From Clostridiales bacterium (GTDB taxonomy: Bacteria; Bacillota; Clostridia; Lachnospirales; WQUN01): a stretch of DNA of 64,000 nucleotides. Position 1 is the stretch's first letter. Each line of letters opens with the position of its first letter. The position numbers and the translations under genes were made by a program. The notes under the pieces are model-generated. The model made no database searches, was not told the origin of the DNA, and was given only the letters and a program-made list of their open reading frames with translations. Location of the stretch: NCBI GenBank assembly GCA_031287685.1, contig JAITSQ010000023.1, positions 1 to 64,000 of the forward strand, read 5' to 3'. Shown here one piece after another: positions 1 through 12,178 of the stretch.

Positions 1-27
1 AAGGATAAAAAGCGCGAAAAAATTCAT
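1..27 (-). CDS. Possible 5' end of a leftward gene, cut by the window edge
   Basis: An ATG on the minus strand at 27-25 is preceded at seven bases by a perfect AGGAGG (35-40 on the plus strand). The nine codons before the edge read MNFFALFIL, which is hydrophobic like a signal or membrane segment. Nothing more can be said about function. It would be divergent from the phage gene at 125. The call rests only on the ribosome binding site and start. Confidence 0.35.
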
Positions 28-124
28 AGCGCCGCCTCCTTTTGATTAGGAGTCAGACCGCCGTTGGCGGAATGGGGTCGTCTGTCGTTGTAAAAACGCG
101 CGTACTCGAAGAGCGAAAGTCGCT

Positions 125-577
125 ATGGCGAAAGAACTCTGTATGCTTCAGCGTTCCGAGACGGGCAAAAAGTTCCGCGAGTATTTTATTTCCGTCGAGG
201 AGGCGTGGAACTCTCCTGAAAAGATTATGGAGCGGGCGTTGGAGATAGCGCACAGACGCGCCGCGGAAGCGGAACAGCGAATTTTTGCGCTTGCAATCCG
301 AAACGACCAACTTCTCGCCGAAAACACCGATTTAACCGTCGCTCTTAACCAGTCGATTGAATACTGGACGGTTATGAAATACAACACCGATGTTATGGAC
401 GGAATATGGACAATGAGCCAGTGCCAGCGAATCGGGCGGCGTTTGTCGGCATATTGCCGCGCGAACGGCTATGTCATTAAAACGTGTAAGACAGGCGACA
501 ACAGATTTTCGGCCGTTAACGCATACCCGATTACGGCTTGGGAGGCTTTTATGGAAGAACGCGGAGGTGAATATTAA
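125..577 (+). CDS. Phage antirepressor remnant (C-terminal part of an AntA/AntB-type protein)
   Basis: The protein (150 aa) begins with MAKELCMLQRSETGKKF, which resembles the end of the AntA antirepressor domain (usually found after some 60 further residues), continues with a helical linker rich in Ala and Glu (about residues 35-75), and ends with a domain containing TVMKYN and YPITAWEAF that resembles antirepressor C-terminal regions. Antirepressors bind phage repressors and trigger induction. The normal N-terminal half is missing: the same frame is stopped by TAG at 47-49 and the codons between do not look like AntA. No good ribosome binding site precedes the ATG. Its stop overlaps the next start by one base. 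It is therefore probably a truncated remnant, or a short paralogue. Confidence 0.6.
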   Translation: MAKELCMLQRSETGKKFREYFISVEEAWNSPEKIMERALEIAHRRAAEAEQRIFALAIRNDQLLAENTDLTVALNQSIEYWTVMKYNTDVMDGIWTMSQCQRIGRRLSAYCRANGYVIKTCKTGDNRFSAVNAYPITAWEAFMEERGGEY

Positions 578-1869
578 TGCCGACGACTATTGACATCGCG
601 GTCACCGACCGCCGAGAACGGTTCAAATATAAGAACCAAACGCAGACGTGGGAGTGGCTTGAAGGACGGTTCAAACACCCCATCGTCACCGCCGACAACG
701 CCTCGCGTGTCGCGAAACCCACGGCGCAAGCGGTCAGCAACAGCAACTACACCTCCTCCTCGCTGAACGTGGACGCGGGGTGGTACTGGTGGCTCCGCAC
801 TCCGTACACCTCGTACTCCTACAACGTCCGCAACGTCACAACGTCGGGTGCGCTCAGCCACCACATCGCGTACGACGGGAACCGGGGCGTTCGTCCGCTT
901 TGTAATTTGTCATCTGGAATCTTGGTATCAGATAGCCCAGACACGGACGGCGCATACCAGATAATCTGGAATCAGCCGCCCTCAACCCCGTCCTCTATAA
1001 CCGTACCCTCCACAATCCTCGCGGGAACGACAATCGCGGTTTCGTGGGGAGCGTCGAGCGACCCCGAAACCGCGTTGTCGGGTTATAAGCTCGAACGGCA
1101 GGACAACGGCAGCGGGACGTGGACGCAGATTTACAGCGGAACGGGGACGAGCTACAACAACACGATAGCGTCAAGCGGCGTGACAAGCGTGGCGTACCGG
1201 GTTAAAGCCTTTGACGCGGCGGGCTTGGAGAGCGCGTACCAGACGAGCGCGACGCGCACGGTAACGTCGAATAACCCGCCGAGTATCAGCGGGAGCGACA
1301 GTAACCTCGGCACGAAAACGGGCGCGTTCACGCAGTCCTACACCGTGACGGACACCGACAGCGGCGCGACGATTACCGTAGTGGAGAAAATCGACAGTAC
1401 GCAGAAGCGGAGCTACACGGCGACATCGGGCGCAAGCCAGACGTTCACCGTGACCGCCGACGACTTTATAAGGCTCGGCAACGGCAGCCACACGCTGACG
1501 ATTACGGCAAGCGACCAGTACGGCGCGAGCGCGACACGCACCTACACATTCAGCCGGAGCGAGGGGCAAATTGACGTGAGCCTCGCCTCGTCGCTACCCG
1601 CCGACGCAATGCCGGAGCGTATCGCGATGACGATACAGCGGCAAATTCCGAGCGGCGCGACGTTCCAAGCCTTGGCTTGCAACAACGGCAACGACGCAAG
1701 CCCCGCGTGGGAGGATATAACGGGCGCGGTCACGAGCGGCATAGTTTACCACTTCGCGAACGCGGTCAAGACGGCGGCGAACTGGGGCGTTAATTTTAAG
1801 GCACTTGTCACCCGAAACGGCGCAACTGGCGACTGCCATATTTCGAGTATAGGAGGGAATTTTGACTGA
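577..1869 (+). CDS. Phage tail/adhesin protein: DUF6273-like variable domain plus FN3 and Ig-like repeats
   Basis: This 430-residue protein probably forms the host-contacting tip or fibre of the phage tail. Residues about 68-110 carry the C-type-lectin-like DUF6273 signature, YWWLRTP followed by GVRPLC. Residues about 130-225 form a fibronectin type III domain (WGASSDPE, YRVKAFD, with SATRTV at its end). Residues about 230-325 form an Ig-like beta domain (TLTITASDQYGA). A C-terminal beta-rich domain follows. The N-terminal half of DUF6273 seems missing: only about 65 unrelated residues precede the signature. The signature patch is rich in codons ending in C, see findings. It overlaps the genes on both sides by one base, so the cassette is translationally coupled. 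GGAGG precedes the ATG. Confidence 0.7.
   Translation: MPTTIDIAVTDRRERFKYKNQTQTWEWLEGRFKHPIVTADNASRVAKPTAQAVSNSNYTSSSLNVDAGWYWWLRTPYTSYSYNVRNVTTSGALSHHIAYDGNRGVRPLCNLSSGILVSDSPDTDGAYQIIWNQPPSTPSSITVPSTILAGTTIAVSWGASSDPETALSGYKLERQDNGSGTWTQIYSGTGTSYNNTIASSGVTSVAYRVKAFDAAGLESAYQTSATRTVTSNNPPSISGSDSNLGTKTGAFTQSYTVTDTDSGATITVVEKIDSTQKRSYTATSGASQTFTVTADDFIRLGNGSHTLTITASDQYGASATRTYTFSRSEGQIDVSLASSLPADAMPERIAMTIQRQIPSGATFQALACNNGNDASPAWEDITGAVTSGIVYHFANAVKTAANWGVNFKALVTRNGATGDCHISSIGGNFD
739..903 (+). other. Candidate hypervariable patch (DGR variable-region-like) in the tail adhesin
   Basis: Between the conserved WWLR and GVRPLC motifs most codons end in C (TAC, ACC, TCC, AAC, GTC, CGC, CAC, ATC, GAC). 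That is what adenine mutagenesis of AAC codons in a diversity-generating retroelement template would produce. DUF6273/C-type-lectin folds are known retroelement targets. No template repeat or reverse transcriptase is in the window, so the mechanism is inferred only. Confidence 0.4.
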
Positions 1870-2321
1870 TGGCTATTAAACACAAAGTAGACAGCCTCGC
1901 TGAAATGCGGGCTGACAGACCAACGCCTAAACAGGCGAAACTCGCGGAGATTGCGGCGGCGTGTGAAGCCGCTATTTACGCGGGCGTGGACGTTGAAACG
2001 AGCGCGGGGCTTGAACATTTCAGCCTCACCATCAACGACCAGACGAACATCGGCAACCTCGCGCTGCAAGCGCAAGCGGGCGCGGACGTACTCTACCACG
2101 CGGACGGCGAGCTTTGCCGGATATTCGCGCCGGGGGAAATACTCGCCGTGGCACAGGCGGCAATCGCGCACAAGACCTACCACACCACGCTATGCAACCA
2201 CATCAACGTGTGGGCGCGGCGCACGGAGGACGAAGAGGAACTGGCGGCAATCCACTACGACAGCCCGCTCCCGAAAGACCTCGCGGCGAGTATGGCGGCG
2301 TTGCTCGAAGGCACGGAGTGA
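1869..2321 (+). CDS. Phage tail-associated protein, DUF4376-like
   Basis: A 150-residue protein in the tail-to-lysis interval. Its middle and C-terminal part (GNLALQAQAG, YHADGELCRIF, HKTYHTTLCNHINVW) resembles small DUF4376-type proteins that follow tail fibre genes in phages of Firmicutes; those are thought to help fibre assembly but no activity is established. It has no signal peptide or membrane segment. GGAGGG precedes the ATG, which overlaps the stop of the adhesin gene by one base, and the next gene starts inside its stop codon. The family match is from memory of the motif and should be treated as likely rather than proven. Confidence 0.6.
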   Translation: MAIKHKVDSLAEMRADRPTPKQAKLAEIAAACEAAIYAGVDVETSAGLEHFSLTINDQTNIGNLALQAQAGADVLYHADGELCRIFAPGEILAVAQAAIAHKTYHTTLCNHINVWARRTEDEEELAAIHYDSPLPKDLAASMAALLEGTE

Positions 2322-2740
2322 CGGGGGATAAGGCGTTAAAATCCGCGACGCTGTGGCTTTGGGGAGGCTTTTTGTACTACGTCATAGAGCTTTTATGGCG
2401 CGGACACAGCCACCCTGCGATGTTCGCCGTTGGCGGGCTTTGCTTTTTGCTCATAGGCGGGATAAACAACCGCGTACCGTGGGGGCTTGGCTTTCTCTGG
2501 CAAGCCCTCGGCGGCGGGGCAATCATAACCGCGACCGAACTGATAAGCGGGCTTATATTAAACGTATGGGTGGGTTTGGGCGTTTGGGATTATTCCCAAA
2601 TGCCTTTTAATGTTATGGGGCAGATATGCCTACCGTATAGCCTGTTGTGGATTTTAATATCGGCGTTCGCGATATGGCTTGACGACAACCTGCGTTGGAA
2701 GCTGTTCAACGAGCAGAAACCGCAGTACAAACTGATATAG
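2318..2740 (+). CDS. Small phage membrane protein, CmpB / putative ABC-transporter type IV family
   Basis: The 140-residue protein has about four hydrophobic segments (around residues 12-28, 35-52, 62-85 and 105-128) and the motifs GGINNRVPW, ITATELISG and WDYSQMPFN, typical of the small membrane family labelled putative ABC-transporter type IV (CmpB). Despite that name, no transport activity is shown and there is no ATPase. Such genes are common next to holins in Clostridia prophages. I chose the GTG at 2318: it overlaps the previous TGA as GTGA, and the upstream residues in the same frame look like a shadow of the neighbouring gene. Confidence 0.65.
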   Translation: MTGDKALKSATLWLWGGFLYYVIELLWRGHSHPAMFAVGGLCFLLIGGINNRVPWGLGFLWQALGGGAIITATELISGLILNVWVGLGVWDYSQMPFNVMGQICLPYSLLWILISAFAIWLDDNLRWKLFNEQKPQYKLI

Positions 2741-2757
2741 CGGGGAGGGGTTACGCT

Positions 2758-3168
2758 ATGGACTGGACTCAAATAATCGTCGTCGCCTTGACTGTTCTGT
2801 TCGGCAGCGGCGGCGTTGTCGTCACCGTCATTCAGAACGGCAAGGCGCACGACAAAAAACACGACAAGACGGACGGCGAACTTGAAAAGCTGCTTGACGA
2901 AATCAAGCAGTTAAAAGAGGGGCAAGCCGCGATCACGGAGGAACTGCGGGTAAACAGCTACGCGACCAAAAAGCAGATAAAGTACACGCTGACGCGGTTA
3001 CATCAAGAGTCAATGGGGCGCAAATATACAACGCAGTACGAGCTTGAGTGCGCGGAGGACTTGTATACGGAATACAAGCGGCTCGGCGGCAACAGCTTTA
3101 TCGATAAGGTGATGGGCAACTTGCGCGGCTTGCCGATCCGCTTTGCCGAACAGGAGGAACAGCAATGA
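2758..3168 (+). CDS. Membrane-anchored coiled-coil phage protein in the lysis region
   Basis: The 136-residue protein has one N-terminal transmembrane helix (about residues 4-24), then a charged stretch HDKKHDKTDGELEK and a coiled coil rich in Lys, Glu and Leu up to about residue 70. The rest is a polar helical tail. This layout fits a lysis accessory protein or holin-like component, but no family is recognised with certainty. The ATG at 2758 follows GGGGAGGGG, which is why a longer upstream extension was rejected. The stop overlaps the next ATG by four bases. Confidence 0.6.
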   Translation: MDWTQIIVVALTVLFGSGGVVVTVIQNGKAHDKKHDKTDGELEKLLDEIKQLKEGQAAITEELRVNSYATKKQIKYTLTRLHQESMGRKYTTQYELECAEDLYTEYKRLGGNSFIDKVMGNLRGLPIRFAEQEEQQ

Positions 3169-3476
3169 GCAGACCCGCAAGAAAGACCGCACGGAAACCC
3201 GCGAAACGCAAGCGGGGCGGGCCGTTCGAGTTTTCCAAACTGATCTTGATACTTGTTATGGCGACGTACTTCATCGCCGTGGGGGTGGGTGTGCGGTTGT
3301 CCTTGATTGACTTCACGCAGTATTCCACCCTCGCGATGCTTGTCGGCGCACCGACCGCGACGGCGATCGGGTTCTATGCGTGGAAAGCCCGCGCCGAAAA
3401 CATTATGAAGCTCAAAAAGGAAAACCCGAAAGAAACCGAGGGCGTCGCCATCGACCCTACAAATATTCAGCCGTAA
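3165..3476 (+). CDS. Small two-TM phage membrane protein, possible holin component
   Basis: A 103-residue protein with a very basic N-terminus (RPARKTARKPAKRKRG), then two hydrophobic segments (about residues 25-45 and 55-72) and a charged tail. Two membrane segments and position just before the endolysin suit a holin or holin partner; the LLH-type holin lies further on, so this one may be an accessory or antiholin. AGGAGG precedes the ATG, and the start overlaps the previous stop as ATGA. No catalytic motif is seen. Confidence 0.55.
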   Translation: MSRPARKTARKPAKRKRGGPFEFSKLILILVMATYFIAVGVGVRLSLIDFTQYSTLAMLVGAPTATAIGFYAWKARAENIMKLKKENPKETEGVAIDPTNIQP

Positions 3477-3496
3477 ACGAAAGGAGCGAAAATGCT

Positions 3497-3637
3497 ATGG
3501 TAACATTAAAATGCGACATCTGCCACAAGGAATTTCTGACGCACGACGACAAGGAGCAGTTCATCGTGTGCGACGACTGCCAACAGACCGCGCTCGACGA
3601 ATTGAGCGACGGGAAAGGAGAGGGCGAAAATGAGTAA
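3497..3637 (+). CDS. 46-residue zinc-ribbon phage protein
   Basis: This very short gene encodes a protein with two CxxC pairs, CDIC near residue 6 and CDDC near residue 28, and an acidic tail. It reads as a minimal zinc knuckle or ribbon. AAGGAG lies ten bases before the ATG at 3497; the ATG five bases earlier meets a stop after three codons. It overlaps the start of the endolysin gene by eight bases. Function unknown; its place suggests a regulator or structural aid in the lysis cassette. Confidence 0.6.
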   Translation: MVTLKCDICHKEFLTHDDKEQFIVCDDCQQTALDELSDGKGEGENE

Positions 3638-4904
3638 TTCACCGCTTGTCAAGTATACAAAACTTTCCCCGAACTGCACGAAACCGCGCAACCACGCCAT
3701 CGACACGATAACCATCCATTGTATGGCGGGGAATTGCACGATCGAAACGTGCGGCGAGATATTCGCCCCTACCTCGCGACAGGCGAGCAGTAACTACGGC
3801 GTGGGTACGGACGGGCGCGTCGGGCTGTACGTTGACGAAGCGAACCGCTCGTGGTGTACGTCGTCCGGCGCAAACGACCACCGCGCCGTTACAATCGAGG
3901 TTGCGAACGACGAGAACAAAGAGCCGTGGCACGTCAGCGATAAAGCCCTCGCCGCCACGATTGAACTTGTCGCGGATATTTGCAAGCGCAACGGCATTAA
4001 AAAGCTGTTGTGGCAGGGCGACAAAAACCTCGTCGGGCAGGTGGACAAGCAGAATATGACCGTACATCGGTGGTTCGCGGCGAAGTCCTGCCCCGGCGAT
4101 TATTTGTACAGCAAGCACGGGTACATCGCCGACGAGGTGAACAAGCGTCTCGGCATAACGCCGCCCGCACCCACAGGCACACCGATAACCGGCAAGGCAA
4201 TCGTGACCGCTGAAACTTTGGCGGCTTTTCTTTTGTCAAAAAACGCGGCCCCGCAGCTAAACGGCGTGGACGCGCTCGGACTGGCGAAGCTGTATATTTC
4301 GGAGGGCGACATTGAGGGCATACGGGGCGATGTCGCGTTCTGTCAGTCCTGCGTTGAAACCGGGTACTGGAAGTTCGGCAACGATGTAAAAGCCGCGCAG
4401 AACAATTTCGCGGGTATCGGCGCGACGGGCGGCGGCGTTGCGGGTGCGGTATTCCCCACCGCGCAAATAGGCGTAAGGGCGCAAATTCAGCACCTCAAAG
4501 CCTACGCGAACAAGGATGCGCTAAAACAGCCGACGGTTGATCCGCGCTTTGCCCTTGTGACGCGTGGCGTCGCCCCGAACTGGGAAAACCTCGGCGGCAG
4601 GTGGGCGGCTGATACAACCTACGGCGCGAAAATCCTCGCGGTATATGACGCGGTGAAAGCGTTCAAAACCCCCGCGCCTGTTACTCCACCCCCGGCAGCG
4701 TTCAAGTCCTACACGGTCAAAATAACCGCCTCCGTGCTGAACTACCGCTCCGGCGCGGGAACAAACTTCAAAATAAACGGCACGGTGAAAAAGGGTGAAG
4801 TGTACACCATCGTCGAGGAAGCGAACGGCGAGGGTGCTAAAAAGTGGGGACAGTTGAAGTCAAAAGCGGGGTGGATAAGCCTCGACTATACCGCGAAAGC
4901 GTAA
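3630..4904 (+). CDS. Phage endolysin: amidase_2 + glucosaminidase-like domain + SH3 domain
   Basis: This 424-residue enzyme should cut host peptidoglycan at lysis. Residues 20-165 are a zinc amidase of the N-acetylmuramoyl-L-alanine amidase type 2 (PGRP) fold: His30, His146 and Cys154 in HCM, VHRW and SCPG are the expected zinc ligands. Residues about 195-345 resemble the glucosaminidase fold (FCQSCVETGYWKFG, NNFAGIGATGGG, LKAYAN). Residues about 360-424 form a bacterial SH3 wall-binding domain (LNYRSGAGTNFKING, GWISLDY). There is no signal peptide, so release depends on a holin. AAAGGAG sits nine bases before the ATG. The start overlaps the zinc-ribbon gene; the holin gene follows after 11 bases. 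Confidence 0.88.
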   Translation: MSNSPLVKYTKLSPNCTKPRNHAIDTITIHCMAGNCTIETCGEIFAPTSRQASSNYGVGTDGRVGLYVDEANRSWCTSSGANDHRAVTIEVANDENKEPWHVSDKALAATIELVADICKRNGIKKLLWQGDKNLVGQVDKQNMTVHRWFAAKSCPGDYLYSKHGYIADEVNKRLGITPPAPTGTPITGKAIVTAETLAAFLLSKNAAPQLNGVDALGLAKLYISEGDIEGIRGDVAFCQSCVETGYWKFGNDVKAAQNNFAGIGATGGGVAGAVFPTAQIGVRAQIQHLKAYANKDALKQPTVDPRFALVTRGVAPNWENLGGRWAADTTYGAKILAVYDAVKAFKTPAPVTPPPAAFKSYTVKITASVLNYRSGAGTNFKINGTVKKGEVYTIVEEANGEGAKKWGQLKSKAGWISLDYTAKA

Positions 4905-4915
4905 GGAGGGGCATT

Positions 4916-5260
4916 ATGAATATCCTAAATTTTCTGCTGACGAACTGGGACAGCGTACTCGTAATCGTCGCGGCGGGCGCGGGCGTCGTCGCGCTTATCG
5001 CCCGCAAGCAGTACGCGATCCTCGACAAGATCGTGTTTTCGCTCGTCACCGAGGCTGAAAAGAAGTACGGCGGCACGGGCGCGGCGAAACTCGCTGCAGT
5101 CGTCGAGTGGCTGTACCCCAAAATCCCCGCGCTGATCCGGCTGTTCATTACCGCCGCACAGCTTGAAAAGCTGATCGAGCGCGTTCTGACCGACGCGCAG
5201 AAGCGGTGGAACAGCAACCCGAACCTCGCGGCGTATGTCGGCAACGCCGAAACAAAATAA
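4916..5260 (+). CDS. Phage holin, LLH family
   Basis: The 114-residue protein has one N-terminal membrane helix (about residues 10-28) followed by an amphipathic charged region, the layout of LLH-type holins, and it follows the endolysin gene. Holins open the membrane to release endolysin. AAGGAGGGG precedes the ATG at 4916, which decides the start over longer versions reading back into the endolysin gene. A strong terminator comes 10 bases after the stop, so this is the last gene of the late operon. Confidence 0.75.
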   Translation: MNILNFLLTNWDSVLVIVAAGAGVVALIARKQYAILDKIVFSLVTEAEKKYGGTGAAKLAAVVEWLYPKIPALIRLFITAAQLEKLIERVLTDAQKRWNSNPNLAAYVGNAETK

Positions 5261-5270
5261 CGCATAGCAC

Positions 5271-5312
5271 AAAAACACCCGCTCCGGCTTTATCGCCGGG
5301 GCGGGTGTTTTG
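5271..5312 (+). terminator. Rho-independent terminator of the phage late operon
   Basis: An 11-bp perfect stem (AAAACACCCGC with GCGGGTGTTTT) with an inner TCCGGC/GCCGG extension. A and T tracts flank both sides, so it can work in both directions between the holin gene and the convergent recombinase gene. Confidence 0.85.
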
Positions 5313-5317
5313 CTCAC

Positions 5318-6907
5318 CTATGAATAACAACCCCGAACATCCCGTTTATAAATATAAACAGGGGGTTCGGGGTTGAAATAACACTCCGGACTGCTCCGCA
5401 CCAAATGCGAACCCCGAAAATCGTTGATATTCAGCACGTTTGCGACTGTTACCTCACCCTCTCCGGCGGTATCGGCGTGTTCAAGCTCTGCGAGCGAAAC
5501 CGTTTTTGCGCCGTCTTTCCAGTTAAAAGTCAGCACAATTTTGTCCTCGTACAGGAAAATTGAGTTGACGAAAATATCTACCAAACTGCGGCGGTAGTCA
5601 GCGTTTTCAATATCGCCGCCTTTGAATTTGCTAATCCAAAACACGACTTGCTCTTTCGTCAACGGCGTTTTCTCGATTTTCTCCTTGGCAATCGAGATTT
5701 CAAGGTCGGCTTTCGCGGCTTCAAGCTCGTCAAGCCTTGATTTCAGCGCGGTGTTTGCGAAACCGTCCTCAACAGATTTTACGATATTCGCAATCTTTTT
5801 GTCAATCTCCTCAAGCTGCTTCTGCAAAAATGGGAGCGTCGTATTTTCACGCTTTTGAAGCTCCACAACCGCGTCCGCAAGGCGGTCTATTACTTCGTCG
5901 CGGAGAACAGAATCGCGTGTCAGAGCCACGACAACGCGCTCGAGCCAGTCCTTTTGAACGGTCTTTTTATCGCACGACTTCTTGTAAATCAGATTGCCGC
6001 ATTTATAATAATGGTGGACTTTTCCGGTCTTGCTCGTGCCGCCCACGCCCACCATCATCGCGCCGCATTTGCCGCAAAACAGCTTGGTCGTGAGGATATA
6101 TTCCTCGTCAGCTTTCGCGGCGGCGGGCTTGTGTTTGTTTTTCTCCATTCGGGCTTGCACTTTATCAAAAATCTCCTGCGGCACAATCGCGGGCATACCG
6201 TCGGGGATAACGGTTTCGCCGTAGCGGTACTCACCGATATAACGGCGATTTTTCAGCAGATTATTCATCGTGCTTTTCGTCGTGTACTTGAATTTCGTTC
6301 CCGCAAACACAGCGCGAGCGTTCATTTCCTCGCTGATTTCCTTGACCGTCTGCCCGTCCGCGTAGCGCGTGAACATCTCCAAAACTATAGGAGCGGTCAG
6401 CGGGTCAATCTCATAAAATCTCTCTGAATTGACCTTGTACCCAAACGGGAGCATACCGCCGTTCGCCTTGCATTTCAAGGCGTTTTCCTTTTGTCCGCGC
6501 TTCACCTTGACACTCAACTCGGCAGAATAATACTCAGCCATTCCATCAAGCATAGCTTCAAGAATTATCCCCTCCGGTCCCTCGGAAATGTTCTCTTTCG
6601 CCGACACGACGCGGACGCCGTTGCGCTTGAGAATCGCGCGATAGGTCGCCGCGTCAAAACGGTTGCGGGAGAATCGGTCGAGCTTCCACACAAGCGCGAT
6701 TTCAAACTGCTTTTTCGCGCTGTCCCGAATCATATTTTGAAACTCCGGGCGGTCGTCGGTCTTAGCAGACAACGCTCGGTCGATATAGGTTGAGATGACC
6801 GTGATGTTATGCCGCTCGGCGTATTCTTTGCACTCGCGGAGTTGCCCTTCGATTGATTCCTCGCGCTGACCGTCAGAGGAATAGCGAGCGTATATGACTG
6901 CGTTCAT
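5318..6907 (-). CDS. Large serine recombinase (phage/ICE integrase)
   Basis: This 529-residue protein has the serine resolvase catalytic domain at residues 1-145 (ARYSS with nucleophile Ser10; LVWKLDRFSRNR), a recombinase domain (about 160-260, NGGMLPFGYKV, LKNRRYIGEY), a zinc-ribbon domain (about 275-330, CGKCGAMM and YKCGN..KKSC) and a long coiled coil (about 345-420). Such enzymes integrate and excise phages and conjugative elements at short att sites. It is convergent with the phage lysis genes and overlaps the repressor gene by four bases (ATGA), so both are one operon. Odd point: the last 16 or so codons run through a long inverted repeat (5329-5374), so the C-terminus may be an extension into an att or terminator sequence. 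Confidence 0.92.
   Translation of the reverse strand: MNAVIYARYSSDGQREESIEGQLRECKEYAERHNITVISTYIDRALSAKTDDRPEFQNMIRDSAKKQFEIALVWKLDRFSRNRFDAATYRAILKRNGVRVVSAKENISEGPEGIILEAMLDGMAEYYSAELSVKVKRGQKENALKCKANGGMLPFGYKVNSERFYEIDPLTAPIVLEMFTRYADGQTVKEISEEMNARAVFAGTKFKYTTKSTMNNLLKNRRYIGEYRYGETVIPDGMPAIVPQEIFDKVQARMEKNKHKPAAAKADEEYILTTKLFCGKCGAMMVGVGGTSKTGKVHHYYKCGNLIYKKSCDKKTVQKDWLERVVVALTRDSVLRDEVIDRLADAVVELQKRENTTLPFLQKQLEEIDKKIANIVKSVEDGFANTALKSRLDELEAAKADLEISIAKEKIEKTPLTKEQVVFWISKFKGGDIENADYRRSLVDIFVNSIFLYEDKIVLTFNWKDGAKTVSLAELEHADTAGEGEVTVANVLNINDFRGSHLVRSSPECYFNPEPPVYIYKRDVRGCYS
5329..5374. repeat. Long imperfect palindrome at the 3' end of the recombinase gene
   Basis: AACCCCGAAC at 5329-5338 is the exact complement of GTTCGGGGTT at 5365-5374, and GTTTATA at 5344-5350 is the exact complement of TATAAAC at 5353-5359, with CCC/GGG between. 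It may be an attachment-site arm, a second terminator, or a site for the recombinase; the sequence does not decide. Confidence 0.7.
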
Positions 6908-7272
6908 TCGTTTTTTCCTCCCGACATTTGCAGTATCATTTCTTTTAATTTAGCGTTCATCGGAGAATTTGGATTGAAACACATCTCCACGAACTCAACC
7001 CAATCCTTTTCATCCGCGAATCTGTCCGTCAAAATCGGCGGCTTGTTCTCAAACATTTTTCCCTGCGGGTTATCCGTGCGTCCGAAAATATAGTCAAGCG
7101 ACACATCGAAAAACTCCGCGTACTTGAACAGCACCGAATCCGAAACCGCCGAGCCGTTATGCTCATATTTATTGAGCGCGGACTGGGCTATGCCGAGAGC
7201 TTTTGCCATCTTCATCTGCGAAAGATTTAAGCTCTGGCGTAACTCAAAAAGTCTATTCGCGACCGCTTCCAT
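6904..7272 (-). CDS. Xre-family helix-turn-helix repressor
   Basis: The 122-residue protein has an N-terminal HTH_3 domain (residues 5-65; LRQSLNLSQMKMAKALGIA and FDVSLDYIFGRTD), and a short C-terminal tail. It lacks the LexA-type peptidase, so induction would need an antirepressor or another signal. It is cotranscribed with the recombinase. Its promoter at 7308-7336 contains a perfect 15-bp inverted repeat covering the -10 box, which fits autorepression. GGAGG lies 10 bases before the ATG. Confidence 0.85.
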   Translation of the reverse strand: MEAVANRLFELRQSLNLSQMKMAKALGIAQSALNKYEHNGSAVSDSVLFKYAEFFDVSLDYIFGRTDNPQGKMFENKPPILTDRFADEKDWVEFVEMCFNPNSPMNAKLKEMILQMSGGKNE

Positions 7273-7285
7273 TTTGTTTGCCTCC

Positions 7286-7318
7286 TGTGATATACTTGCC
7301 TACGGCAAGTATATCACA
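7286..7318. promoter_or_regulatory. Operator-like inverted repeat over the repressor promoter
   Basis: Two perfect 15-bp arms, TGTGATATACTTGCC and its complement, are separated by TAC. The repeat contains the -10 box of the leftward promoter and abuts the repressor ribosome binding site. It could also fold as a hairpin in the leader RNA. Binding by the adjacent Xre protein is inferred. Confidence 0.75.
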
Positions 7319-7336
7319 CTTTCGAGCGGCTGTCAA
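7308..7336 (-). promoter_or_regulatory. Promoter of the repressor-recombinase operon
   Basis: Read on the minus strand: TTGACA (7336-7331), a 17-bp spacer, then TATACT (7313-7308). Both hexamers are at or one base from consensus. Confidence 0.8.
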
Positions 7337-7355
7337 GTGCTAATATTATAATAAT

Positions 7356-7369
7356 ACTATCCCGATAGT
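7356..7369. promoter_or_regulatory. Second small inverted repeat, possible operator
   Basis: ACTATC and GATAGT with a two-base centre lie just upstream of the rightward promoter (7377-7405), between the two divergent promoters. Different sequence from the 7286 repeat, so it may bind another regulator. Confidence 0.45.
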
Positions 7370-7376
7370 GATTGAC

Positions 7377-7405
7377 TTGACAAATCTAACTTTTTGTGCT
7401 ATACT
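7377..7405 (+). promoter_or_regulatory. Strong divergent promoter
   Basis: TTGACA (7377-7382), 17-bp spacer, TATACT (7400-7405). It reads into a leader hairpin and the 64-residue gene at 7482. Confidence 0.8.
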
Positions 7406-7412
7406 GTCTACA

Positions 7413-7458
7413 AATGCGGACAGCTGTCGCTCTTGACAGCCGTCCGCATTGGATTTTT
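7413..7458 (+). terminator. Leader hairpin with U-tract directly at the transcription start (attenuator or tiny RNA)
   Basis: Starting about seven bases after the -10 box, AATGCGGAC and GTCCGCATT close a stem that continues as GCTGTC/GACAGC, followed by GGATTTTT. This has the shape of an intrinsic terminator, so the promoter would yield an RNA of about 46 bases unless read through into the gene at 7482. Confidence 0.65.
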
Positions 7459-7481
7459 CAAATTCATAAGGAGGGGTCAAC

Positions 7482-7676
7482 GTGAAAATTGCCGACGAAA
7501 AATGCCCAGTACACGCCGACGCAATCGAAGCGTTGGCTCGACAGCTGCTCCCCGCGATTCGCTCTTACTTCGAGAGCGATGAGGGGCAACGGGAGTTTGC
7601 CGAGTGGCAGGCTCGGCAGGGAAATTTACCAGCGGAGGAGGTGAACGCAGACGCGCAGGTCAGGCGAACAGCCTGA
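7482..7676 (+). CDS. Small protein of unknown function, 64 aa
   Basis: The protein starts MKIADEKCPVHADAIE and is otherwise helical and acidic (SYFESDEGQREFAEWQ). No family is recognised and there is no membrane segment. AAGGAGGGG precedes the GTG start. It is divergent from the repressor, under a consensus promoter and a leader hairpin, which points to a tightly regulated product such as an excision or induction factor, but this is inference from position only. Its stop lies inside a small hairpin, and a terminator-like stem follows at once. Confidence 0.6.
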   Translation: MKIADEKCPVHADAIEALARQLLPAIRSYFESDEGQREFAEWQARQGNLPAEEVNADAQVRRTA

Positions 7677-8330
7677 CGGAAAACGGAGAGGGGCGGCAAT
7701 CGCCAACCCTCTCCGTTTTCGCGTGAGCGAAGCGGAACGAACCGCAACGCGGTGAGCAACAGCGACGCTCACGGGCGCGACCGCAGTCGCGCAATTCCCC
7801 TCGGAGAGCCCACGACACTTTCGGCGTAGCCAAAGTGTCAGAGTGGGTCACGTACTTTGAAAAAGTGCGTGATTCGTTCTTTCTCCGCTGGTTATCCCGT
7901 GTAAAATAGCGACCGCAGGTCGCGTAGCAGACGAGCGGAGCGAAGGCTTATCGGAGCGCGCATTTTTGCGCTGTCCGAGAGGGTTTGGGATACTTCCCAA
8001 CGAGCGACTGTGCGGCAGCGCAGTCCTTGCTTGCGAAGTCTGAAACCGTCGTTATTGTCGCAAAGCACACCAGCCTAAATTTCTTTTTCGCAAGCAGGGG
8101 AAACGGACTGCCAACCAGTCCGTTTCCATACCGACAAGCAATGACTTCTGCTCGCCTCACTCACCGTTGCCGCTTGTTGGGGAGACCCCAAACCCCTCTC
8201 GGACTACCCAAGTTTGGGTAGTCCGTTAAGCCCGCAAGCGGTCTGCTGTTACTTATAGCCAGTCTAACTTTCGTAAGAATAGTCGTTGGTCTTTTCCCGA
8301 TAACTGGGATATCCCCAATGTACTAACTGA
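7677..8330. other. Hairpin-rich non-coding region, 654 bp
   Basis: No plausible gene is found here on either strand. At least a dozen separate hairpins are packed end to end. The clearest are 7679-7720 (14 bp), 7775-7792 (GCGCGAC/GTCGCGC), 7814-7839 (GACACTTT/AAAGTGTC), 7909-7923, 7952-7977, 7985-8000 (TTGGGA/TCCCAA), 8006-8025, 8099-8127 (12 bp, GGAAACGGACTG arms), 8177-8191 (TTGGGG/CCCCAA) and 8200-8225 (12 bp, CGGACTACCCAA arms). It sits between convergent genes of an island with a recombinase. Possibilities are a large structured RNA, an origin of transfer or single-strand origin of a mobile element, or a set of transcription stops. Confidence 0.6.
7679..7720 (+). terminator. Terminator-like stem after the small gene
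   Basis: A 14-bp perfect stem, GAAAACGGAGAGGG with CCCTCTCCGTTTTC, holding a small GGCG/CGCC inner stem. The T-run after it is short (TTTTC), so it is a fair rather than ideal terminator. Confidence 0.6.
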
Positions 8331-10367
8331 TTATATTATATTTGCACGAATAATTTCTTCAATTGGATTCGCAGTCTTAGTCTGAAATATAAGTTTATCA
8401 TCTTTGTCTTTGATTGAAAAACTACCATTCTTAAAACGATAATATAATCCGTTATTAAGCAGGTAATGGTCAGCCCAAGTTCCAATACTATCATTAAATT
8501 CAGCTTTAGGCATTTTCTTTTTTGAGCACACGTATAATGCTGCTCCAAAAATCTCATAACTATACCCATTTGATGATTTATTAGGAACTATCAACATCTC
8601 TCCATTTTCATTGCGGAGTCGCAGATGTGAAGCACTCATCCAATCAAAGAGCGCAGGAAAAGCAATTAAGCAATAACGCCAATCGTTTTTGTTTACATCA
8701 GAATTTTCCACAATGCTTTCCAACTGCTTGCCAACATCTGAACTAACCGGCAGAGCACCTAACAGTTGCTCAACCATATCTCTGTTATCTGAAAACAATC
8801 GTTTCATACTCGGTGTTCTTTGAGCTTCATCAGGGTCATTTACGCATAGCGTTTTGTAGTTCCCATTACCCGCAGGTAATGTGTAGTCGCGGAAAGTCAA
8901 TAGTGCACGTCTCAATAAGTTTTCGCTGTGGCGTGGTCCATTGTTCTCAAATAATGCAGATATTTTACTCCAATATTCAACAAAAACTTCTTTATCGTAT
9001 TTATCATCAGCAATATCAGCAAAATAAAGGGCAGAACGTATTTGACCGCTAAAATATGGGTGTTGCTCGGCTTGATATATTTCGGCAGCAAACTCATCAT
9101 CAAGCAATATTATGCTTGCCTTTACTCGTTCTTCCTCGATTTGTTCGCCATTAAAACCAGCAACATCGCCTCCGCCAGAAAGATATTGATATATATTTTG
9201 ATGCTTGTTGGCGATTTTGCTAACGCCATCTATTGCGCGGCGATAAGTAAGTTCACTATCTATCTGGGTATTAAGTGCGAGATTTTTACAGACTCTTAAC
9301 CATTGTGTCAACGAACCTGTGTCAACACCTTTTGTCAAATGCATATATTTGGTGAAAGCAAAAAATATCACACGGTCTCTAAATGTCCGTCCTTCGGAGA
9401 GTGCTTTGAAAATTAAGTAACGGGAATCCGCGTCTTTAAGATTCGCGCAGAGATAATTAAGCGAATAGTATACCGTTTCATATACTTCTGTATCAAGTTT
9501 ATCATAGGCAAGACTGTTTGACCAATTATAATCGTCTCTGCAAATCCCTTTCCCCATAAGGATTCCGCCAAAGAACATCAAATATGCCCTGTCGAAATCT
9601 TGTTTATTGTGACTCCAAAACAAGTCTGTCCACGCTTGGTCAAAATTCAATTCAAACTTCTCTTCAAACGGAATATTCAATTTTTGCATCCTACCTACAA
9701 GCCGTGCTTTGAAATTTTCAAACGATGTCAGCGATTTTCCACGAGCGTTTAGTTTGATATAGAGACTATCCTCCATCCCAAGGTCATTCATTTCAAGAAA
9801 TTTGAACACAATAGGCTTGTACTCCTGATTTGATAGCCTATCACCAAGGTCGCAAATATCGCTGAAAGTAATTTTAATATCATCAAGCATTACAAGAGCA
9901 GACTGAATTGTAGGGTCAAATCTCCAACCAGAAACAAACCATTCTGAATCTTCAATCTCCATAGAAGGCTCAACGTCTGACGAAAAGACAACTGAACGAT
10001 TATCGATCAACTTCTCTAAAAACACACGTGAGCTTGTCCTTGTTTCATATGAAAAATTGTGAAGTATTGCAGTTTTAGATTCATCGTCACAAAAAGCATA
10101 CAGGTGTAGTAAGAAAAGAGTTGTCAAGCGTTGTTGCCCATCTATTGGAATGAACTTCTTGTTTTCTACTTTTCCATACACAAAATTTAAGTCAAGCGGC
10201 AACATCTGCTTTAAGACAGCATCTTTCATATCTGACAAAAAATTAGCACGAACTAAATTTGTGTGTTCATCGTGTCTACCTTGTGCGTAATCGCGTTGAA
10301 CTCTCGGCACTTCGACCGTATATTCAGCGAGCAGGTCAAGTAATGTACTAATAGAAGCGTTATTCAC
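8331..10367 (-). CDS. DUF262 protein without nuclease domain, second subunit of a putative restriction pair
   Basis: The 678-residue protein opens with a DUF262 (ParB-like, GmrS-type) domain: PRVQRDYAQGR near residue 21 and DGQQRLTTLF at 76-85, the nucleotide-binding or hydrolysing motif of the family. A second conserved-looking stretch, YIKLNARGKSLTSFENF, lies near residue 205. The C-terminal 400 residues hold no HNH or DUF1524 motif that I can see. In GmrSD systems DUF262 senses modified phage DNA using NTPs. The GTG start overlaps the stop of the upstream gene (GTGA, 10364-10367) with GGAGG ahead, so the two are translationally coupled. The gene is clearly AT-rich compared with its surroundings, a sign of transfer. 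Confidence 0.75.
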   Translation of the reverse strand: MNNASISTLLDLLAEYTVEVPRVQRDYAQGRHDEHTNLVRANFLSDMKDAVLKQMLPLDLNFVYGKVENKKFIPIDGQQRLTTLFLLHLYAFCDDESKTAILHNFSYETRTSSRVFLEKLIDNRSVVFSSDVEPSMEIEDSEWFVSGWRFDPTIQSALVMLDDIKITFSDICDLGDRLSNQEYKPIVFKFLEMNDLGMEDSLYIKLNARGKSLTSFENFKARLVGRMQKLNIPFEEKFELNFDQAWTDLFWSHNKQDFDRAYLMFFGGILMGKGICRDDYNWSNSLAYDKLDTEVYETVYYSLNYLCANLKDADSRYLIFKALSEGRTFRDRVIFFAFTKYMHLTKGVDTGSLTQWLRVCKNLALNTQIDSELTYRRAIDGVSKIANKHQNIYQYLSGGGDVAGFNGEQIEEERVKASIILLDDEFAAEIYQAEQHPYFSGQIRSALYFADIADDKYDKEVFVEYWSKISALFENNGPRHSENLLRRALLTFRDYTLPAGNGNYKTLCVNDPDEAQRTPSMKRLFSDNRDMVEQLLGALPVSSDVGKQLESIVENSDVNKNDWRYCLIAFPALFDWMSASHLRLRNENGEMLIVPNKSSNGYSYEIFGAALYVCSKKKMPKAEFNDSIGTWADHYLLNNGLYYRFKNGSFSIKDKDDKLIFQTKTANPIEEIIRANII

Positions 10368-11932
10368 TGTGCATAACCTCCATCGAAGAAAAGTTTGAAT
10401 GTTGATGCCATAGCTTCAATATAATCCTTTTTATCATTAGCACTCCAAATTTGCATATCTGTATCAGATAGGTCATTTGTATAAGCCTTGAGGAAAACAT
10501 TTTTTGTGCAGAGGGGCACGAATAGCCCCTTAGATTCGCGCTCCGTAATAATCTTGCGCTTTTCGTCAAACGTGCTGCAAGAATAATCTCGGCTACGGTT
10601 AATTCTGCTATCCAGCAATGTTAAATTCCATAACGTATCATCAGGTTCATCGGTGTCATCAGCCGTTGCGTGAATATGTTCAATATCCCACTTGACTTTA
10701 TCTCCAGTTTCACCCTTATATATGTCAAAAGGAAACCGATATTGCTTTTCACTTTTACAAACGAGCGTAGCAATATTAAGCAGCAACAATAATTTTCGAA
10801 TTTTCTTGTTTTGATTACTACCGCCATATGATAATTTTGCCAATGTTTGCTTATCCGCGTTGCCTACAAGCCCTTTTACTCTTTCAAGCAAGTTGCTGAT
10901 AATTTCACTTTTGCGTTTACCGCGAGTAAGCAAAAATATTTCGGACATTTCAACGCCCGATGTAATCAAAAAACCGATAATATGATATTTATTCAAATCA
11001 GAATACCAGTCACGAAATTCCGCAAACAGTTTCTCAACTCTCTCCCAAGTTTCTTTTACAAACGCTTCTTTATTAGATGCGGTCTCAAGTTCCGCTGAAA
11101 AAATGAGAAACGGGAAATAGTTCTGCCTACTACTGATTTGTAATTGCAGTTTCCTTTCGTCATCGTGTGCTAACAATTCAAATAGCATATCTATACGGGT
11201 ACCACTATGCTCGGTTTCATTCAAAAAATACCAAAATGAATCATCTCTTAGTCCTTGCTCCATTCTGTCCCACGCAAGGGCAATCTCCATTTGACGCTTG
11301 TCTATGTCTTGCGAAAAATTGTCTTTATTTAACAAAAGAGCTTTTATCAATTCGGCATTGGTCAACGGTATTTTTCCAATATTCACTTTTGTAAACATAA
11401 TAATTGGGTCAATTTTAGGCGGAATTTCATACCAAATGAAAAAAACACTCTTCCTAAACTTTGTGTTTAGTTCCTGAATGGCTACAGATTTATCAGGTTG
11501 ACGATCAAGCCAGTTGTTTATTTCTTCATATGCAGCCGTGATGTGAAAAAAATCAATATTCTTATCACTATCTAAGTCTTGGTTGTCTGATAGGGATTTC
11601 AAAAATTCCGCACTATCATTGCGTGTCTCGTATTCCAATTCATACGGTGGCGTAGCAGAACGAATCTCCTGTTCCGCTATCTTCATAAAAATATATACTG
11701 TTGTTAATCGCTGTTGCCCGTCAACGACCTCAAAGGAACCATCATCGCGTCGCTTGACGATTAATGGTTGAATACAATAACGCTTATCGCCTTCGGTACG
11801 GAATTCATTAACATCATCAAGAAGTGCCGTGACTTCATATTTCGTCCAACGATACCCACGTTGATACGATGGGACATAAAAACGACAATCTTTTAATTCG
11901 CTGATGTTTTTTGTTTGTATAGCTTTGCTCAC
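10364..11932 (-). CDS. DUF262 + DUF1524 (HNH) protein, GmrSD-like type IV restriction enzyme
   Basis: The 522-residue protein has an N-terminal DUF262 domain (PSYQRGYRW near residue 21; VDGQQRLTTVY at 70-80) and a C-terminal DUF1524 HNH nuclease: WDIEHIHA at 415-422, WNLTLLDSRINRS at 435-447 and FDEKR near 455 supply the His, Asn and Lys expected of the beta-beta-alpha metal fold. Family members cut phage DNA carrying modified bases, and SspE uses the same pair of domains against unmodified phage. The GTG start follows ATAGGAG. It is the first gene of a two-gene operon with the DUF262-only protein. The pair lies between a recombinase module and a tRNA gene and is AT-rich. Confidence 0.82.
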   Translation of the reverse strand: MSKAIQTKNISELKDCRFYVPSYQRGYRWTKYEVTALLDDVNEFRTEGDKRYCIQPLIVKRRDDGSFEVVDGQQRLTTVYIFMKIAEQEIRSATPPYELEYETRNDSAEFLKSLSDNQDLDSDKNIDFFHITAAYEEINNWLDRQPDKSVAIQELNTKFRKSVFFIWYEIPPKIDPIIMFTKVNIGKIPLTNAELIKALLLNKDNFSQDIDKRQMEIALAWDRMEQGLRDDSFWYFLNETEHSGTRIDMLFELLAHDDERKLQLQISSRQNYFPFLIFSAELETASNKEAFVKETWERVEKLFAEFRDWYSDLNKYHIIGFLITSGVEMSEIFLLTRGKRKSEIISNLLERVKGLVGNADKQTLAKLSYGGSNQNKKIRKLLLLLNIATLVCKSEKQYRFPFDIYKGETGDKVKWDIEHIHATADDTDEPDDTLWNLTLLDSRINRSRDYSCSTFDEKRKIITERESKGLFVPLCTKNVFLKAYTNDLSDTDMQIWSANDKKDYIEAMASTFKLFFDGGYAQ

Positions 11933-11991
11933 CGTTGTTAGCTCCTATCTTACATTATGTATCGTGGCAGGCTAAACCTCACTCCGGTAAT

Positions 11992-12044
11992 TCAAAAACA
12001 AACGCGAACGCCTCCCCGACGATGAACACCCGGGTCGGGTTCGC
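11992..12044 (-). terminator. Terminator after tRNA-Ser
   Basis: On the minus strand a hairpin with arms GCGAAC/GTTCGC and CCGAC/GTCGG is followed by GTTTGTTTTTG, just 3' of the tRNA. Confidence 0.7.
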
Positions 12045-12056
12045 ATTTGTTCGGAA

Positions 12057-12145
12057 TGGCGGAGAGGGCGGGATTCGAACCCGCGTGGGATTGCTCCCAA
12101 ACTGATTTCGAGTCAGCCCCGTTATGACCTCTTCGATACCTCTCC
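12057..12145 (-). tRNA. tRNA-Ser(CGA), CCA encoded
   Basis: The minus strand folds as a long-variable-arm tRNA: acceptor GGAGAGG/CCTCTCC, anticodon loop CTCGAAA giving CGA (reads UCG), a long variable arm (TTGGGAGCAATCCCA), T-loop GGTTCGAATCC, then G and an encoded CCA. Its 3' end faces the AT-rich DUF262 island, the usual side for island insertion, but no duplicated tRNA end was noticed. Confidence 0.93.
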
Positions 12146-12178
12146 TTGAGGCGCGGGTTGGCGTAAAAACTCTTAACG

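Follow-up and report, generated by a model that had tools for sequence, protein, structure and literature searches.

A GrwAB-like pair of DUF262 genes in a Clostridiales bacterium: conserved pairing, a compact nuclease domain and a nuclease-less partner

The window – the whole stretch of 64,000 nucleotides that was analysed, from a Clostridiales bacterium (assembly GCA_031287685.1, contig JAITSQ010000023.1) – carries two adjacent DUF262 genes, A and B (Table 1), both of which are open reading frames at the coordinates and on the strand that the initial annotation had given. The DUF262 domain (Pfam GmrSD_N) is recognised in A (E=1.1e-29) and in B (E=1.8e-21), and the DUF1524 domain (GmrSD_C) in A only, at E=3.5e-4 and 20.9 bits against a cut-off of 23; in a search of the whole genome the same DUF1524 match reached 23.0 bits and was counted as over the cut-off. 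No DUF262 gene other than A and B, and no DUF1524 gene other than A, was found in this genome, which is 97% complete. The overlap of the two genes makes translational coupling likely. Reading frames, Pfam matches and junction thus agree with the initial annotation, which had described a fused DUF262-HNH protein coupled through GTGA to a larger DUF262 protein without a nuclease; the AT-richness that it noted is likewise borne out, the GC content of the pair being 38% as compared to approximately 57% in the prophage flank and 60% in the host flank, a difference that suggests acquisition.

Table 1. Position, strand and composition of the gene pair and of the features that adjoin it in the window.
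Feature	Position	Strand	Length	Description
Serine recombinase	5318-6907	minus		adjoining prophage
HTH repressor	6904-7272	minus		adjoining prophage
Gene B (grwB-like)	8331-10367	minus	678 aa	DUF262, helical linker to ~448, ~230-aa C-terminal domain
A/B junction	10364-10367	minus	4 nt	GTGA; stop of A overlaps start of B
Gene A (grwA-like)	10364-11932	minus	522 aa	DUF262, helical linker, compact DUF1524 His-Me nuclease
tRNA-Ser (CGA)	12057-12145	minus		complete, own hairpin terminator; host-side marker, outside the system

The DUF262 domain of A (residues ~15-201) contains Q24 and R25, the DGQQR motif (D71-R75) and F180xxxN184, while that of B (residues ~10-223) contains Q24 and R25, DGQQR (D76-R80) and Y203xxxN207, with Y instead of F. 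The nuclease residues of A are H419, N436 and N445; the C-terminal domain of B has no nuclease motif.

AlphaFold2 models of the two proteins (mean pLDDT 89 each) were compared to solved structures. The model of A matches SspE (7drs; Z 15.8, rmsd 18.0, 465 residues aligned), DndI (9jfl; Z 14.4, rmsd 11.9, 449 aligned) and BrxU (7p9k; Z 7.8, rmsd 16.1, 367 aligned) over its whole length, the large rmsd values arising because several domains are fitted at once. Matches to the model of B are confined to residues 1-448 (7drr: Z 12.3, rmsd 18.3, 352 aligned; 9jfl: Z 12.1, rmsd 9.5, 319 aligned). Judged from its model, B resembles a GmrSD protein that has DUF262 and the helical linker but carries a domain of ~230 residues in place of the nuclease. 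This bears on the 400-residue nuclease-less C-terminal part that had been ascribed to B: there is indeed no nuclease, but the part is not wholly novel, some 225 residues being the usual helical linker, with ~230 remaining. For these last residues (~450-678) the fold search with the whole-B model gave no convincing match; segments of Mediator and of the spliceosome came back at Z 5-6, which is within the noise level stated for the tool, and descent from a degenerate DUF1524 was rejected, the profile comparison with the nuclease of A giving a probability of 0.3%. Sequence searches against solved structures with each protein by itself gave weak matches for A and none for B.

The pair sits between the end of a prophage and tRNA-Ser (CGA). 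The prophage end (window 1-7272) lies at the start of the contig, with the rest of the prophage off the contig, and comprises lysis genes (an amidase/glucosaminidase endolysin and a holin-like gene) and, facing them on the opposite strand, the serine recombinase and HTH repressor. The initial annotation had taken the pair as cargo of a recombinase island beside a tRNA. The surroundings gave no sign of this: the recombinase keeps company with prophage lysis genes at the contig end, the tRNA-Ser gene is intact and has a terminator of its own, and no att duplication was found. The only second copy found for such a duplication is the end of another tRNA-Ser gene (GCT), whose terminator is similar: the 3' end and hairpin terminator of the CGA gene (window 11985-12160) and of the GCT gene (positions 256-419 of locus L145, on contig C1) are alike, at 83% over ~95 nt, and so mimic an att duplication. 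In no relative examined does tRNA-Ser stand beside the spoVB orthologue, hence no empty site could be read.

Two features of the noncoding DNA near the prophage end were also observed. At 7308-7676, back-to-back sigma-70-like promoters (11/12 matches each) separate the HTH repressor from a 64-aa ORF whose ribosome-binding site is strong, an arrangement that resembles a lysogeny switch. The noncoding spacer at 7690-8330, which parts the repressor region of the prophage from gene B, includes a stretch of ~50-210 nt (~7797-8006) with copies of 74-80% identity in several related genomes and at two other places in this one, which gives it the look of a dispersed noncoding repeat; part of this stretch also forms an imperfect inverted repeat of 62 nt (7945-8006 / 8171-8232).

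A two-protein system of this composition, GrwAB of V. cholerae, was described in 2025 in Nat Microbiol as a modification-dependent restriction system in which GrwA consists of DUF262 and DUF1524, and GrwB of DUF262 and, after it, domains whose function is unknown (PMC12137116). Gene order and layout are those of the window pair: A (DUF262 plus DUF1524) first and B (DUF262 plus a long nuclease-less C-terminus) second, adjacent and co-oriented, with QR, DGQQR and F/YxxxN in both proteins. The window host, whose genome has a SpoVB-like gene, belongs to a lineage far from Vibrio, and our link to GrwAB of V. cholerae A1552 runs via a Vibrio homologue (locus L136, genome G321) and residue numbering. 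A-R81 and B-R86 of this homologue carry the same numbers as in published GrwA and GrwB, and its A-H428 and A-N519 are 2-3 residues off the published 431 and 521. The window A protein aligns with the Vibrio A at 37% identity over 452 aa plus 42% over 91 aa (E 7e-84), and window B with the Vibrio B at 33% over 654 aa (E 7e-81), the Vibrio B being 744 aa long as compared to 678 aa. The nuclease residues correspond: H431, N521 and N530 of GrwA against H419, N436 and N445 of window A give a spacing of 9 between the two asparagines in both, whereas the spacing from histidine to first asparagine is 90 in the former and 17 in the latter. The Vibrio pair itself lies in a type I restriction locus, with HsdR (Pfam) downstream and an hsdS-like gene upstream, an arrangement known for TgvAB.

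TgvAB, reported in 2024, is a further two-protein GmrSD-like system in which both partners carry DUF262, one carries DUF1524, and both are needed (PMC11411939). Compared by published names and locus numbers, its order is reversed: nuclease-less TgvA comes first, whereas in the window pair the nuclease gene does. TgvA and GrwB are reported to be distinct outside DUF262. With GmrSD and BrxU window A shares the DUF262-linker-DUF1524 layout, but these act as single proteins whereas A is accompanied by a second DUF262 protein. PADLOC (a 2023 copy, which predates the GrwAB name) and NCBIfam offered partial models or none for the pair. The pair is most probably a new and slightly slimmer member of the GrwAB family, of a two-gene kind already described in 2025.

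A search for the same pairing in other genomes had been suggested in the initial annotation. A tblastn search with B gave 17 plasmid records (and no match among phage records), and in all 11 of the plasmid loci read an A-homologous DUF262 gene lies directly upstream of B on the same strand. Profile searching of GTDB genomes, with B as the only query, yielded 577 relatives; among the best 80 of these, A is directly upstream of B in 78 of 78 evaluable loci (cut by the contig end in a few), the remaining two contigs starting inside B. Because A was absent from the query the count is not biased towards pairs; the loci having been found through B, A without B is outside what such a search can see. 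The loci span Bacillota, Spirochaetota, Bacteroidota, Pseudomonadota, Campylobacterota, Actinomycetota, Verrucomicrobiota, Thermodesulfobacteriota, Myxococcota, Ignavibacteriota and others, and since both genes and their order are conserved across so many phyla, chance is excluded. The GrwAB family thereby extends well beyond Vibrio, with a pairing of A and B that is practically constant across about ten phyla. The most common junction is a 4-nt overlap like that of the window pair (25 of 85 measured pairs). Within the taxonomic order of the window host, matches were found in 6 of 295 genomes (this genome included, and some of them only partial), a frequency comparable to that published for GrwAB, ~1% of genomes (PMC12137116). 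At one locus in this order (L142, genome G044) gene B is split at 3197-4013 between two frames (205 and 87 aa) near a contig end, and is probably broken.

Conservation was assessed position by position. Q24, R25, D71, Q73-R75, F180, N184, E418, H419, N436 and N445 are invariant in 57 A sequences, and Q24, R25, Y27, D76-R80, Y203 and N207 in 59 B sequences; DGQQR deviates in a single A row (at G72) and in no B row. The QR and N207 of B were part of the search patterns, and their invariance is therefore partly a matter of ascertainment, but DGQQR of B was not in the patterns and its invariance is informative. Pairwise distances among A proteins correlate with those among B proteins across 55 loci (Mantel r=0.80; none of 2000 permutations was as high), as expected of partners inherited together, although shared inheritance without contact also yields such a correlation. 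The initial annotation had proposed a hetero-complex with two NTP-binding sensors, and one conserved two-gene unit with both NTPase motifs kept in practically every relative fits such a complex; its contrast with classic GmrSD alone falls short, TgvAB (PMC11411939) and GrwAB (PMC12137116) having already been described.

The neighbourhoods of relatives show a moderate association with defence. HsdS is directly upstream in 8 of 66; 3'-5' exonucleases (3), WYL regulators (1 upstream, 4 downstream, and near four plasmid loci too), a Qat gene, mobile elements and many unrelated genes also occur, the counts being given without a background rate. The view that the pair keeps defence-like company is upheld only in part.

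Taking gene structure, homology, motif conservation, constant pairing, correlated divergence and predicted folds as what was observed here, and drawing NTPase activity, complex formation, target recognition and cleavage from GrwAB, TgvAB, SspE and BrxU, we consider the pair most probably a two-protein Type IV (modification-dependent) restriction system of the GrwAB family, acting as a hetero-complex that would cut modified phage DNA. A and B would be co-translated and assemble; their DUF262 domains would recognise modified DNA besides binding and hydrolysing NTP; and NTP turnover in both would license the DUF1524 His-Me nuclease of A to cut phage DNA. The C-terminal domain of B probably docks A, or else gates or widens recognition, and the question of why there are two DUF262 proteins is narrowed to these ~230 residues. 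In GrwAB, defence depends on the two genes together and on the NTPase site of each DUF262 domain, and mutation of the nuclease, or of DGQQR in GrwA or GrwB, abolishes it; the targets are DNA with 7-deazaguanine or glycosylated hydroxymethylcytosine (PMC12137116). With the insert of GrwA missing from window A (spacing 17 vs 90), the substrate range of the window pair could differ.

A different division of labour would have A alone as an ordinary single-chain GmrSD enzyme, with B an accessory outside the catalytic sensor, either a regulator or an anti-inhibitor (against IPI*, for example). The complete GmrSD architecture of A is in keeping with this, and the authors of TgvAB raise the same option for TgvA (PMC11411939); yet A adjoins B in every evaluable locus (loci found through B), the NTPase motif of B is invariant, and in GrwAB the single substitution B-R86A abolishes defence (PMC12137116). 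We regard this arrangement as unlikely. Much less probable is an abortive-infection or toxin-like system that damages DNA non-specifically and involves no modification-dependent restriction: cells protected by GrwAB can stop dividing and turn filamentous when infected, so that collateral damage is possible (PMC12137116), but phages escape GrwAB through mutations in the 7-deazaguanine pathway (PMC12137116), and escape from TgvAB also arises through mutations in phage DNA-modification pathways (PMC11411939), which points to modification sensing. Least probable, and very remote, is a phosphorothioate-sensing effector in which A, perhaps with B, nicks DNA at the marks of a partner system: SspE and DndI are the closest solved structures to A (whole length) and to residues 1-448 of B, and the profile of A matches DndI at E 4.5e-17, but both are single proteins partnered with Ssp/Dnd modification genes, and this role is disfavoured because by their models DndB has no match and DndC a best score of only 20.3 bits against a cut-off of 290 in the 97% complete genome; moreover no modification genes adjoin the pair, and its relatives have no constant modification partner.

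Within the preferred reading of a GrwAB-family restriction system, the nuclease of A deserves separate comment. A spacing of 17 residues between the HNH histidine and the first asparagine is found in window A and its closest kin – in Syntrophomonadaceae, Spirochaetaceae, Ruminococcaceae and two streptococci, with Entomospira assigned by motif spacing – as compared to ~60-116 in other relatives and 90 in GrwA, so that the compact form is missing an insert of roughly 45-100 residues. In a tree built without the insert columns (midpoint-rooted, with no outgroup), the compact form makes a single, fully supported group nested among the insert-bearing rows; the simplest reading of this topology would be that the insert was lost once and that the compact form then passed between phyla. 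All catalytic residues are kept, and loss of the insert may alter substrate range. A stronger proposal – that the compact clade (Clostridia, Bacilli, Spirochaetes) is a functionally distinct branch of GrwAB, in which the ~230-residue domain of B would be an independent modification reader, the two NTPases an AND-gate, and the target spectrum unlike that of V. cholerae GrwAB – is speculative and, in our estimation, rather doubtful. Whatever its targets, the compact clade gives structural studies a smaller enzyme of natural origin, the large HNH insert being evidently dispensable.
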